DNA from: an uncultured Clostridia bacterium
GTDB taxonomy: Bacteria > Bacillota > Clostridia > Oscillospirales > Ruminococcaceae
Reading direction: 5' to 3'
Length of the DNA stretch: 34,622 nt
Assembly (NCBI GenBank): GCA_947627205.1
Contig: CANQVE010000025.1
Span: 1-34,622 of the forward strand
Below are positions 1,168 to 19,789 of the stretch, in pieces. The translations under genes and the position numbers were made by a program. Under the pieces are notes generated by a model, which worked only from the letters and a program-made list of their open reading frames with translations, made no database searches and was not told the origin of the DNA. Positions within the stretch are counted from its first letter, which is position 1, and the number at the start of each line of letters is the position of its first letter.

Positions 1168-1702
1168 TTACTGTTTAACGTCGATAGGTTTAATATGTTC
1201 AGTTCCCAAATCTCTATAGTACAAAACATTAGCGGGAACATCTTTATTTACAACCGTACCAGCGGCGATAACTGAATTATCCCCGATAGTTACGCCCTTT
1301 AAAATAATTACTCCCGAACCTATCCAGACATTTTTTCCGATAAATACTGGCTTTGTTATAAATTTCTCTCTGGTATTATCCGACTTATAATCATGGTCGT
1401 GATCGTATATCAATACGTCTTGTCCGATTAAACAGCCGTCTGATATTGTAATATGTTCTCTTACATTTATCATTGTTCCGAAATTTATAAAAACCTTTTT
1501 CCCGACATCAAGCACTCCGCTTTCGGAAACATTAAAAATAACATTTTTCCTTACGCCCAAGCCTTTTTCTATGTTTATCTTTGACTTGCGTGTCTTATAA
1601 ACAGAAAGTCCCCAAATATGGTTTCTGCCTATAGAAACGTTTACCCCCCCCCCGGAGTTTTAAGCCGATTTCTCTGAATATCGATAAAATTCTGTCTATC
1701 AT
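1168..1702 (-). pseudogene. Hexapeptide-repeat acetyltransferase, frameshifted at a G10 tract (possibly phase-variable)
   Basis: Translation would start at 1702 after an AGGAG site and run [17 protein letters not shown] into a run of ten G on the coding strand (plus positions 1644-1653). In the present sequence this frame stops after 36 residues. With nine G it stays open: the next residues become [12 protein letters not shown] and continue to the stop at 1168, about 178 residues. The C-terminal part shows left-handed beta-helix hexapeptides ([20 protein letters not shown]) and the HDHD segment of CysE/LacA/NodL-type O-acetyltransferases. An apparent TTG start at 1560 would lack the N-terminal part. 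The likely role is acetylation of a polysaccharide sugar. A sequencing error in the homopolymer is the main alternative. Confidence 0.75.
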
Positions 1703-7680: not shown

Positions 7681-8241
7681 TTAGAACAGTGGCGGCGACA
7701 CCTCGCCAATAAAGTCCGGCTCTGTAATTCTATTCTTAATTATCTTAGCTGGCACACCGCCCACTACAGACATTGCCGGTACATCTTTTGTGACCACCGC
7801 GCCCGCACATACTACAGCGCCGCGTCCTATAGTTACTCCTTGAAGAATAGTTGCACCTGTACAAACCCATGCATAATCTTCAATTACTATAGGTTTAAAT
7901 ACAGCTGTAAAATTATTATCCTCTATATCATGACTGCCTGTTATTAATTTCGAATTACCGGCAACCGTTACATTATTTCCAACAGATACACCCCCCCGAC
8001 CATCTACAAGACAATGAGCTCCTATTGAGCTTCCTTTGCCGATATGTATACCCATTGGCCATAAAACGTCTGCAGTCCTAAAAATAACACTGTTGCTTGC
8101 GATCTCAGTTCCACACAGTCTGTAGAAGAAACGTCGAAAATGTCTACTGGGAACATGGGAAATGCTCATATTCAGTAACAAACCAATTGAATTAAAAAAT
8201 TTTCTTTTTAACCCTTTTGGAACATCATTTATTGTAATCAT
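7681..8241 (-). CDS. Hexapeptide acetyltransferase (WcaF/Maa-like)
   Basis: This 186-residue left-handed beta-helix acyltransferase has imperfect hexapeptides from about residue 55 (IGKGSSIGAHCLVDGRGGVSVGNNVTVAGN), a catalytic-type histidine in GSHDIEDNNF and the C-terminal GAVVTKDVPAMSVVGGVPAK typical of the maltose/galactoside/colanic acid acetyltransferase family. It is likely to O-acetylate a sugar using acetyl-CoA. Codons for GRGGV contain a run of seven G on the coding strand (plus positions 7991-7997). The gene is intact at this length. It lies 4 bp downstream of the GT4 gene at 8246, so it is in the same transcript. Confidence 0.85.
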   Translation of the reverse strand: MITINDVPKGLKRKFFNSIGLLLNMSISHVPSRHFRRFFYRLCGTEIASNSVIFRTADVLWPMGIHIGKGSSIGAHCLVDGRGGVSVGNNVTVAGNSKLITGSHDIEDNNFTAVFKPIVIEDYAWVCTGATILQGVTIGRGAVVCAGAVVTKDVPAMSVVGGVPAKIIKNRITEPDFIGEVSPPLF

Positions 8242-10797: not shown

Positions 10798-11895
10798 TTA
10801 TTTTTCTTCTCCTATATTTATTTGGTTGAAAATATTATCAATTTTCTTTTCAGCCCATTTAAAAGGCTTGCTTTTTGCAACAGCAGGTTCAATAAATTTC
10901 CGCCTTGGAATATCTATCAAGCTGCAAGCGGTAAATACGATCACAGTAACTATTAAAGCATATATCACGCTGTGTTCGGGAAGCCATTTTTCCGCCATAA
11001 AAATATTCGCCCACAAAAAGGGATAGAAAACGGGAACTTGGTGTATTATGTACACGGAAAAAGTTGATACCGACATAAAATTTATTATCTTGCTGTGCCG
11101 TTCGCGAAGATTTATTACCCAATAAAATATGCAAAACGCTATTAAAAAATTGGGAAGGGATTTTATGTCACTACAATATACTTCGGTTATGCGCCTGAGA
11201 GCTTTGTATATTATATCGTCGTTTTGAGCTACAGCAATATAATAGTTTGTAATAGCAAGCATTAAATACCCCCCCAGACCAATAAAAAACAAATAATTTT
11301 TGTTTATCTTTAACTTTGGAGGATATTTTTTTATAAATCCTATAAACACATATACAGCACCGAACCATATCGTGTCGCACAAAAAACCATTTGCAGCATT
11401 TGAAAGAGTAGTACCTAAATAAGACATAAGAGCCATAAACGCTACTACAAAAGCAAAAACTTCTCTTTTACTCCAGCTTAATATTTTGTCAAGAAAAGGT
11501 TTAAAAATCAACAGAATAAGATATGAAGAAGCAAACCACAAACATCTTCCCCAAAATGGCAAAAATCCGTAAATTGTTTCTTTTATCGGCAAATTGCCTT
11601 TATTTACAACAAGCATAATTATTGTAATAATTGATGTATAAAAATACAGTTGGGTATACATTTTCAAAATTCTCTTGCTGTTGAATTTTGAATCAACCAT
11701 ATACCATACACCGATAAGCAGAAAAACATTAACTGAAATCCGCGAGCCTGAACTGATAAAAATCAACAAAAAATCATTTACGGAATTGTTATATGTAAAG
11801 TCTCCGCTTTGACCCACAAAATGTCCGCATACTATTGCAAACATTGAAATTATCCTCAACAATTCTACATTTGAGTTGCGTTGTGACTTAGCCAT
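10798..11895 (-). CDS. Acyltransferase family 3 membrane protein (OafA/WecH-like)
   Basis: This is a 365-residue integral membrane protein with about ten hydrophobic segments. Its N-terminus NVELLRIISMFAIVCGHF is the classic Acyltransf_3 (PF01757) opening, with the conserved R and H. The C-terminal part VSTFSVYIIHQVPVF also matches the family. It would acylate (usually acetylate) a sugar of the surface polysaccharide at the membrane. The coding strand contains a run of seven G at plus positions 11269-11275, within codons for GLGGYL, in frame. It follows manA by 37 bp. It is the third acyl-transfer gene in the locus, so acetylation appears to be a major source of glycan diversity here. Confidence 0.87.
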   Translation of the reverse strand: MAKSQRNSNVELLRIISMFAIVCGHFVGQSGDFTYNNSVNDFLLIFISSGSRISVNVFLLIGVWYMVDSKFNSKRILKMYTQLYFYTSIITIIMLVVNKGNLPIKETIYGFLPFWGRCLWFASSYLILLIFKPFLDKILSWSKREVFAFVVAFMALMSYLGTTLSNAANGFLCDTIWFGAVYVFIGFIKKYPPKLKINKNYLFFIGLGGYLMLAITNYYIAVAQNDDIIYKALRRITEVYCSDIKSLPNFLIAFCIFYWVINLRERHSKIINFMSVSTFSVYIIHQVPVFYPFLWANIFMAEKWLPEHSVIYALIVTVIVFTACSLIDIPRRKFIEPAVAKSKPFKWAEKKIDNIFNQINIGEEK

Positions 11896-17708: not shown

Positions 17709-17800
17709 ATGTATAACAGTTGAACTAATATTTTAACAAGTGAACATATAAAAAGTGAAGATTTAAAATAGAACAACTAAGATTTTTGCGAGGTCAGCTT

Positions 17801-18364
17801 ATGAAAAACAATATCAAAAAACTTACTCTTTCGGCAATGTTTATTGCCATAGGCATAGTGCTTCCGTTTTTCACGGGGCAGATAAAGGAAATTGGAAACA
17901 TGCTGCTGCCGATGCACATTCCCGTGTTTTTGTGCGGGCTTATATGCGGGTGGGAATACGGCGGTGTTGTCGGGTTTATACTTCCGCTGATGAGGTCAAT
18001 GATGTTCGGTATGCCGCCGATTTTTCCGAATGCAATAGCGATGTCGGTCGAGCTTATGACATACGGACTTGTTGCGGGCGCGCTTTATTCCTCCTCGAGA
18101 TGGCAATGCGTCATAGCGCTCTATCGCTCGCTTATAACTGCGATGATATCAGGAAGAATAGTCTGGGGAATGACGGAAGTTATGCTGCTGGGTGTTGGCG
18201 GAAGCGGATTTACATGGAAAGCGTTTTTGTCAGGCGCGCTGTTAAATGCAATTCCCGGCATTATCATTCAACTTATACTTATCCCCGCGATAATGGTAGC
18301 GCTGAACAGAACGGGACTTGTAAAATTTAGAAAAGCCGAACAAAAACGGTCGGCGGATGTATAA
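17801..18364 (+). CDS. ECF transporter S component (substrate-specific membrane subunit)
   Basis: This protein of about 187 residues has five to six hydrophobic segments. Its opening KLTLSAMFIAIGIVLPFFTG and the segment MLLPMHIPVFLCGLICGWEYG are typical of ECF_trnsprt (PF12822) S components, which bind a vitamin or small metabolite and dock to a shared EcfA/A'/T module encoded elsewhere. The start is ATG 17801, 8 nt after GAGGT; an ATG-like codon five codons earlier precedes that site. No energising subunits or vitamin genes are adjacent, so the substrate is unknown. A bidirectional terminator follows at 18391-18421. Confidence 0.82.
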   Translation: MKNNIKKLTLSAMFIAIGIVLPFFTGQIKEIGNMLLPMHIPVFLCGLICGWEYGGVVGFILPLMRSMMFGMPPIFPNAIAMSVELMTYGLVAGALYSSSRWQCVIALYRSLITAMISGRIVWGMTEVMLLGVGGSGFTWKAFLSGALLNAIPGIIIQLILIPAIMVALNRTGLVKFRKAEQKRSADV

Positions 18365-18390: not shown

Positions 18391-18421
18391 TTAAGCGACA
18401 GTACAAATCACTGTCGCTTAA
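18391..18421. terminator. Bidirectional intrinsic terminator
   Basis: A perfect 12-bp stem (TTAAGCGACAGT / ACTGTCGCTTAA) has a 7-nt loop and lies between the convergent ECF S-component gene and the sugar transferase gene. On the minus strand the stem is followed by TTTTTT, and on the plus strand by an AT-rich tail, so it should end transcripts from both sides. Confidence 0.85.
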
Positions 18422-18430
18422 AATTATTAT

Positions 18431-19789
18431 TCAACAATTGCTGCGCTTGAACATTGACGAAAGCGTCATTCCGATTATTTTAAGATCTGTTTTTACCGAG
18501 CGCTCTCTTATGTACTTATAGTCAAGCTCAAGCTGTTCTTCGTTTGTCATCTTTACCGTATCCGCTAACTGCCAATAACATGACAGCCCCGGCTTTATAC
18601 AAAGTCTGTCGCTCGGGAGCTGGTCCTGTTCGGACTTTAAAAACGGACGAGGACCTACTATCGTCATAGATCCCGTCAGAAGATTTAACGCCTGCGGCGT
18701 TTCGTCAAGCGAAGTTCTGCGCAGAAATCTGCCTACCTTAGTAACTCTCGGATCGTCCTGCATCTTAAAATGAACGCTGTCGTATTCATTTTTTATCATA
18801 AGATCCTTTTTCATTTCATCGGCATTTACATACATCGTTCTAAACTTTACCATTTTAAAGATCTTTCCGTTTTTGCCGACACGTTCCTGAATAAAAAAGG
18901 GATTTCCAAAATCATCTATAATTATAACAACCGCGATTATTATGTATATCGGAAGTCCGACTGTAAGACAAATAACCGCGACTATTATATCAAATGCTCT
19001 TTTAACAAAATCGTAAAGCGGTTTTGGCTTTACTTCGCACCTTTGCGGAGAAGTACCGAGCTTACTGTCTTGAACAATATCCTGATATCCAATAGAGGAC
19101 TCATATTGTCTAAGTAGTACAGCTCCATCTTCTGACGCTCGCCGCCCCCCCCCGATTTCATATTTGGCATCATTGCGCGCATAAGCCTGCCAATATCCCG
19201 TAAGTCCCGGTTTGACCGACAAAAGCGCTTCCTGCTGTTTGGGGGTGTAATATTTTTCAAGTTCTTCTCTCAATATAGGTCTGGGACCAACGATCGACAT
19301 ATCCCCTTTTATGAGAATATTAAACGGTATCTGAGGAAGCTCGTCAATAGAAAGCTGTCTGATACGCCCGCCGAAGCACGTTTTCCCGTCGCCCGCTTTC
19401 TTATAACCGATAAGTCTGGGATCGTCATCTAGCTTATATTCTTTTTTGTACTCTTCGAGCTGTTCTGGCGTAAGCATATCCTCAAGCCTATCCGCATTTT
19501 TTCGCATTGAGCGAAATTTTAATATTCTGAGGGGTTTTCCGCCCTTACCAACTCTTGTCTGTATGTAAAACGGGTTCCCGGGATCTTTTATCATAATAAT
19601 TATTGATACAATGATCAGAGGAACTATCAGAATTATGCTTGCAAAAAGCGAAGCAAATATGTCAAATGCCCTTTTGAAGAACAAGAATACAGGTCGTTTT
19701 TTATAGACCTTTTCTTCTTCATACGGCCTGTCAATGACCTCAATTGCCTGAGCCTGTCCGTCACGTTCAATGGTTTCCGGCTGAGCCAC
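18431..19789 (-). CDS. Tandem-domain initiating sugar transferase (two bacterial sugar transferase domains joined across a G9 tract)
   Basis: This frame of about 452 residues contains two complete PF02397-type phosphoglycosyltransferase domains. Domain 1 runs from FFKRAFDIFASLFASIILIV (membrane hairpin) through GGRIRQLSIDELPQ and GDMSIVGPRP to LTGYWQAYARNDAKYE. Domain 2 runs from FVKRAFDIIVAVICL through LRRTSLDETPQALNLL and MTIVGPRPFL to the end. They are joined through a run of nine G on the coding strand (plus 19145-19153). The joining linker is a wrong-frame reading of what is, in the other frame, a normal domain 1 tail (ERQKMELYYLDNMSPLLD, ending at a stop at 19030). With eight G, domain 1 would end there as a normal single enzyme. 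The start is GTG 19789, 8 nt after AGGAG. It initiates the lipid-linked repeat unit. Confidence 0.8.
   Translation of the reverse strand: MAQPETIERDGQAQAIEVIDRPYEEEKVYKKRPVFLFFKRAFDIFASLFASIILIVPLIIVSIIIMIKDPGNPFYIQTRVGKGGKPLRILKFRSMRKNADRLEDMLTPEQLEEYKKEYKLDDDPRLIGYKKAGDGKTCFGGRIRQLSIDELPQIPFNILIKGDMSIVGPRPILREELEKYYTPKQQEALLSVKPGLTGYWQAYARNDAKYEIGGGRRASEDGAVLLRQYESSIGYQDIVQDSKLGTSPQRCEVKPKPLYDFVKRAFDIIVAVICLTVGLPIYIIIAVVIIIDDFGNPFFIQERVGKNGKIFKMVKFRTMYVNADEMKKDLMIKNEYDSVHFKMQDDPRVTKVGRFLRRTSLDETPQALNLLTGSMTIVGPRPFLKSEQDQLPSDRLCIKPGLSCYWQLADTVKMTNEEQLELDYKYIRERSVKTDLKIIGMTLSSMFKRSNC
19145..19153 (-). repeat. G9 homopolymer tract inside the sugar transferase gene
   Basis: Nine consecutive C on the plus strand (G on the coding strand) decide whether domain 1 of the transferase ends with its own tail or continues into domain 2. 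Runs of this length are prone to slipped-strand mispairing. Confidence 0.9.

Follow-up and report, generated by a model that had tools for sequence, protein, structure and literature searches.

A guanine tract proposed to switch an initiating sugar transferase between a single enzyme and a two-domain fusion in an uncultured Clostridia bacterium

We propose that a run of nine guanines (G9) inside a sugar transferase gene of an uncultured Clostridia bacterium is a contingency tract, by which the cell's PF02397-type transferase would be switched between three states, i.e., enzyme 1 at 8 or 11 G, a fusion of two transferase domains at 9 or 12 G, and a truncated chain at 7 or 10 G. We consider this reading reasonably probable. 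With 8 or 11 G, the ribosome would complete enzyme 1 with its native tail and stop, and domain 2, having no start codon of its own, would remain silent. With 9 or 12 G, the former being the present state, the last 37 residues of enzyme 1 would be read in the other frame and lead straight into domain 2, and the resulting fusion would carry an intact domain 2 and a domain 1 minus its conserved tail. With 7 or 10 G, the chain would end after 10 residues and neither enzyme would be intact. The tract length would change by slipped-strand mispairing at replication. The features on which this proposal is based lie in a stretch of 34,622 nucleotides, referred to here as the window, and are listed in Table 1.

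Table 1. Coordinates of the features discussed, as positions in the window.
Feature	Position	Strand	Remarks
Sugar transferase gene, open frame	19798-18431	minus	455 aa counted from GTG 19798
Domain 1 as far as the tract, predicted initiating sugar transferase, PF02397 positions 1-146 of 179	19154..19789	minus	Profile match
G9 tract	19145..19153	minus	Encodes extra Gly residues absent from tract-less homologues; G8 in two relatives
Dual-frame stretch	19034..19144	minus	8-G frame, conserved 37-aa C-terminus of domain 1 (TAA 19032-19030; Pfam 149-178); 9-G frame, open linker to domain 2
Predicted RNA hairpin directly 3' of the tract, possible frameshift stimulator	19049..19133	minus	Columns 21-105 of alignment A4
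Domain 2, predicted second initiating sugar transferase, 200 aa + stop, PF02397 1-179	18431..19033	minus	Without own start before codon 98 past the tract
Intrinsic-terminator-like hairpin, 13 pairs + T run, directly 3' of domain 2	18391..18421	minus	Consensus match only
G10 tract close to the 5' end of a hexapeptide acetyltransferase gene	tract 1644..1653, gene 1168-1702, body 1168-1638	minus	

The gene may begin at either of two GTG codons, of which GTG 19789 is the likelier start (452 aa, vs 455 aa from GTG 19798) because an AGGAG motif sits 8 nt upstream of it. The terminator-like hairpin at the other end of the gene was also called on the plus strand, and may thus also act as terminator of the convergent gene at 17786-18364. 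PF02397 matches twice within the open frame in the Pfam profile search. In the six-frame profile search, domain 2 was matched over all 179 positions at 192.6 bits, above the family cut-off, and domain 1 over positions 1-146 at 138.3 bits before the tract, the rest of the profile (149-178) following after the tract in another frame at 20.3 bits, which is below the family cut-off. The initial annotation, made from the DNA letters, had described the frame as joining two complete transferase domains; two PF02397 domains do share one frame, but in this frame domain 1 ends at Pfam position 146 of 179. PF02397 was found at only one locus of the window's own genome (G000, 99.8% complete), which also encodes, on contig C37, a single protein of the polytopic class PF00953. 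The latter is presumably MraY, but it may instead be a second kind of initiating enzyme.

Both domains carry an Asp-Glu dyad (D149 E150 in domain 1 and D362 E363 in domain 2, numbered from GTG 19789) that is invariant in the alignments and is named as the catalytic dyad in the part of PMC10942596 that we covered. Based on the profile and the dyad, the two domains are predicted PF02397-type polyprenyl-phosphate sugar-1-phosphate transferases. They differ in the stretch between the KFRxM motif and the dyad, which counts 51 residues in domain 1 and 40 in domain 2. Since a loop in this region has been linked to substrate choice in WbaP/PglC (PMC10942596, same part), we infer different sugar substrates for the two domains. 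The fusion would be active mainly or only through domain 2. The monotopic phosphoglycosyl transferases WbaP and PglC (PDB 8t53, 8g1n, 8e37) have a single catalytic domain per chain, unlike the two-domain fusion predicted here, for which the AlphaFold model (pLDDT 46.6) was too poor for use.

The tract, which reads C9 on the plus strand, sits 37 codons upstream of the natural end of domain 1. We computed the reading frames for lengths of 7 to 11 G. A tract of 8 or 11 G is followed by 37 residues that end in RKGAK before the TAA at 19030; with 9 G, 237 residues follow and run through domain 2; with 7 or 10 G there are 10 residues. At 12 G, one triplet longer, the outcome is expected to be that of 9 G. 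Read in its own frame, domain 1 has the tail GERQKMELYYLDNMSPLLDIRILFKTVSSVLLRKGAK and then meets the TAA ending at 19030, which bears out the earlier suggestion that the linker is a wrong-frame reading of this tail. Peptides of the native tail, in the 8-G frame, would come from GERQKMELYYLDNMSPLLD, and those of the linker, in the 9-G frame, would include ASEDGAVLLR and QYESSIGYQDIVQDSK. Here, a homopolymer tract inside a coding frame sets the frame by its length, as in phase variation by simple repeats; judged by the reading frames alone, one of the frames is fused to the coding sequence that lies downstream and the others end in different C-termini, as in C-terminal phase variation with fusion of open reading frames.

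The protein was matched in 27 of the 43 genomes of the genus and two adjacent PF02397 domains were found in three of them (own genome included in both counts), namely G000, G031 (locus L109, CANQFZ010000069.1) and G037 (locus L110, CANRDI010000001.1). The latter two are metagenome-assembled genomes labelled 'uncultured Clostridia bacterium' with 'Lapin' isolate names, which suggest rabbit gut as the probable habitat of the genus, and the three represent three species, with one genome per species. Both relatives have the same junction with G8, vs G9 in the window, so that their domain 1 keeps its tail and their domain 2 is out of frame. The window and G031 proteins are 98% identical in domain 1 and 96% in domain 2. 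The 8-G-frame tail aligns with the Pfam tail and with the tails of 13 tract-less domain-1 homologues, in agreement with the claim that domain 1 ends as a normal enzyme with 8 or 11 G. These 13 homologues are devoid of the added Gly residues at the tract position, and the tract is therefore an insertion tolerated by domain 1 in the 8-G frame. We infer length switching inside one population; the G9/G8 difference itself lies between species, and the assembly being a draft, the ninth G could stem from an error of sequencing or assembly.

Outside these three genomes, a protein search (E 1e-60) over 297 genomes of the family, own genome included, gave matches in 18, with single domains in all but G000, and no other adjacent PF02397 pair appeared among the matches listed from a profile search of 148 family genomes. 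A candidate tandem in G002 was rejected, as its two pieces are halves of one domain flanking a run of N. A pattern scan of viral contigs gave 8 matches and no relative among them. As a separate observation, the end of locus L120 (end of G037 contig C1) and the start of L118 (start of G037 contig C19) share the 5' part of a transferase gene, after which one contig end continues as a domain-1-like catalytic part with one stop and the other as a domain-2-like catalytic part; this may reflect either a strain mixture or exchangeable cassettes. Likewise, in the genus g64 (L031-L034, L048, L049), near-identical N-terminal stretches of about 45 residues are found on catalytic parts of either the domain-1 or the domain-2 type, pointing to putative allele swapping at that boundary.

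In the domain-2 frame, the first ATG, GTG or TTG is codon 98 past the tract in both the window and G031, and in G037 the first start-type codon is a GTG at codon 55, within the first membrane helix. The statement that domain 2 has no start codon ahead of its membrane helix was thus correct, and extends to the relatives. A fixed G8 tract with an independent start for domain 2 in orthologues had been named as the observation that would speak against the switch; G8 was found in both relatives, but an independent start in neither. The missing start codon in the linker was considered as evidence in itself and dropped, since it follows from the residues of the domain 1 tail: with these fixed, no sampled coding had a start codon (P = 1.0).

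Translation of domain 2 might alternatively begin by re-initiation at a GTA that overlaps the TAA of domain 1, with AAAGG/AGGTG just upstream, in which case 8 G would give two separate enzymes and 9 G the fusion. The stretch aaaggtgcgaaGTAAagcc is identical across the three alleles, as such a site would predict, but it also encodes the KGAK end of domain 1, which is common in homologues and explains the identity. Besides, the GTA position is internal in free-standing domain-2 homologues, and the two ATT codons found in the linker of the window are not conserved in the relatives. GTA is not known to be an efficient start codon. Taken together, we regard re-initiation as extremely improbable. 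A variant, in which an ancestral GTGA stop/start overlap had mutated to GTAA, was also dropped, the position being internal in the free-standing homologues.

Domain 2 is under purifying selection, with a dN/dS of about 0.10. Between the window and G031, dS was 0.169 and dN 0.017 (dN/dS 0.101; 8 nonsynonymous and 19 synonymous changes; binomial p 5e-8 vs neutrality), and between the window and G037, over the first 132 codons, dS was 1.24 and dN 0.117 (dN/dS 0.095), next to dN/dS values of 0.03 and 0.09 for domain 1 in the corresponding comparisons. We conclude that domain 2 has been translated. Since the three genomes share the junction, this constraint should postdate the loss of the domain's own N-terminus, an argument that fails if the junction was spread later by recombination. 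Among the 26 domain-2 codons that differ between the window and G031, 7 synonymous and 2 nonsynonymous changes were assigned to the G031 branch, 8 and 1 to the window branch, and 3 and 5 were left unpolarised, with 9 of the 18 polarised codons placed by the distant homologue L029 alone.

All three tract alleles have an open linker frame, vs 2 of the 13 tract-less homologues; the chance of an open linker expected from codon usage is 1.1-2.9% per tail, although these chances do not multiply for three related alleles. Read in the domain-2 frame, the linker has a dN/dS of 0.77 to 1.3, i.e., no amino-acid constraint, which suggests that its openness is kept and not its sequence. The synonymous divergence of the tail from G037 is 0.35 for the window and 0.31 for G031, in both cases below that of every 37-codon segment of domain 1 (0 of 124 as low) and domain 2 (0 of 94; segments overlapping), which also speaks for the switch, although between the window and G031, the closer pair, the tail is not unusual (7 of 126 domain-1 and 31 of 94 domain-2 segments being as low). 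Domain 2 is thus probably reached via the tract, and the frame leading to it has probably been kept open.

The same region could also be a remnant or silent cassette, in which an allele replacement left behind the 3' part of an older transferase. In that case, the frames would be fused by accident, or the ninth G would be an artefact of assembly, and domain 2 would serve at most as a recombination donor. Free-standing domain-2 homologues (e.g., L031-L033, L048, L049) are encoded by single genes and extend further at the N-terminus, by a stretch of roughly 20-50 residues that domain 2 lacks, as expected of a remnant. The joining of one N-terminus to either domain type at the g64 loci is also in line with this reading, as is a frame-broken glycosyltransferase on contig C20 of the same genome, behind which there is likewise another copy of its C-terminal half, truncated at the N-terminus. 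In G037, domain 2 is broken by one TAG and has a different, chimeric 3' part, which both fits a remnant and speaks against the switch proposal, as domain 2 is not always kept. However, the junction-bearing alleles have a dN/dS of about 0.1, which is at odds with a silent remnant, as are the 200 codons of domain 2 that are free of interrupting stops in two species (window and G031) and the linker frame kept open, even though a cassette that is exchanged and occasionally expressed could show a similar constraint. Overall, we judge a remnant to be distinctly unlikely.

A further reading is programmed recoding, in which ribosomes (shifting by -1 at 8 G) or RNA polymerase would slip on the G run, aided by the hairpin, and produce enzyme 1 and the fusion in a set ratio that would shift with the tract length. 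The hairpin, which is long, has z values of -2.73, -2.79 and -2.45 in the three tract alleles, vs -1.97 to +1.35 in the 13 tract-less homologues, and 2 of its 38 pairs show a compensatory change; domain 2 is also constrained in the comparison with a lineage that is now at G8. However, slightly different stretches gave z values of -2.91, -2.26 and -1.78, in three sequences that are related, the covariation score was reached by 60 of 500 shuffles, and 3 of 114 cells are unpaired. Dual coding of the tail/linker stretch, which includes the hairpin, also lowers divergence by itself. Besides, two other G tracts of the genome break glycan genes in the manner of ordinary phase variation. Programmed recoding as the main mechanism is thus doubtful in our view. 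A combined model would be a dual-coding 3' end acting on two time scales, where replication slippage flips the genotype and the hairpin leaks ribosomes, so that each genotype would make a set minor share of the other product and one gene would pick and tune the ratio of two first sugars at the only PF02397 locus; we deem this very unlikely.

The proposed slippage at replication can be viewed against the other G tracts of the genome. GGGGGGG occurs 9 times in the window (both strands, overlaps counted), vs a mean of 1.0 in shuffles, none of which (0 of 100) reached 9. The genome has nine distinct tracts of G8 or longer, five of them in genes: the G9 of the sugar transferase, the G10 of the window's acetyltransferase, a G10 in an acyltransferase and a G9 in a glycosyltransferase on contig C20, and a G8 in a class-V aminotransferase on contig C2. 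Judged by eye, two of the remaining tracts lie in a CRISPR-like array and two outside evident genes. At its present 10 G, the acetyltransferase has its start and body in different frames, which 9 or 12 G would join, and it is likely a phase-off gene of the same glycan locus. No close orthologue for a tract comparison was found in the genus, where 16 of 43 genomes (own included) gave a match at E 1e-15 and the best non-self match was 51% identical over residues 42-139 of 156. The C20 glycosyltransferase (L121 13990-15461, minus strand) is frame-broken, with its Pfam match split at the tract, and the C20 acyltransferase and the C2 aminotransferase have intact frames. Such glycan genes broken at their tracts beside intact ones look like slipped-strand phase variation.

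Some further features were observed in passing. The tract of the C20 glycosyltransferase is followed by two alternatives for the C-terminal half, of which one is joined in a different frame and the other is N-truncated, a layout of an old 3' end left behind, as in domain 2. Runs of G7 at 7991-7997 and 11269-11275 on the minus strand of the window lie in an intact hexapeptide transferase and an intact acyltransferase gene, and are possible young tracts. The CRISPR-like array (L083 900-2900, about 174.2-176.2 kb of contig C2) holds 27 copies of a 34-nt unit within 2 kb, spaced by 64-67 nt with one gap of 248, and runs of G8 occur in some variants of the repeat.

Where surface glycans vary in phase, it is often a single step that is switched on or off. 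In the three-state switch proposed here, the first committed step would be affected, with one initiating enzyme exchanged for a version to which another is attached. If this holds, slippage by a single base could swap the reducing-end sugar of a surface polymer, with consequences for phages, for recognition by the immune system and for linkage, in a genus that is otherwise known here from assemblies of uncultured Clostridia. The locus would also be a natural test case of whether initiating transferases tolerate fusion and the loss of a conserved tail.

The view that this arrangement differs from the usual on/off phase variation was right in kind, but fusion of open reading frames driven by a tract and C-terminal switching have already been published; the following comparisons are based on the parts of the sources that we covered. 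In NgoAV hsdS1/hsdS2 of Neisseria gonorrhoeae, a poly-G at the 3' end of the first open reading frame loses one G to fuse the next one, altering the specificity of the active enzyme (PMC9577141). Both cases are poly-G fusions, but NgoAV concerns specificity subunits of a restriction-modification system, the second being inactive alone, whereas here both partners would be entire membrane enzymes, paralogous to each other and each equipped with a dyad. For pglB2 of N. meningitidis, a simple poly-A repeat is said to fuse the gene with 'the downstream phosphoglycosyltransferase gene' (PMC5320596, citing Viburiene 2013), and PglB2 has been described as an ATP-grasp plus phosphoglycosyltransferase protein (PMC11130364). 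This repeat-mediated fusion of an initiating-transferase gene, by poly-A instead of the poly-G found here, may also join two such enzymes, as far as can be told from the citing sentence, and may thus be the nearest precedent. In the pili of Bifidobacterium breve, likewise a Gram-positive gut commensal, the length of an intragenic G tract fuses two open reading frames and varies in the population (PMC9187656), but pilus genes are concerned and the outcome is on/off. C-terminal phase variation has also been proposed for HCAN_0660/0661 of Helicobacter canadensis and NGK_1211/1212 of N. gonorrhoeae (PMC2823697, PMC5320596), where, as here, the C-terminus changes with a late tract and two coding sequences are merged in one of the frames; unlike here, these are hypothetical or membrane proteins, and the passages covered hold no selection test. 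In the literature searched, which covered the pglB2 study through citations only, we found no description of two initiating transferases being joined by a tract. As far as our searches went, the new elements are a G tract that links two complete, divergent predicted initiating transferases, the proposed three-state outcome at the only PF02397 locus of a genome, and evolutionary evidence suggesting that domain 2 is expressed although it lacks its own start codon.
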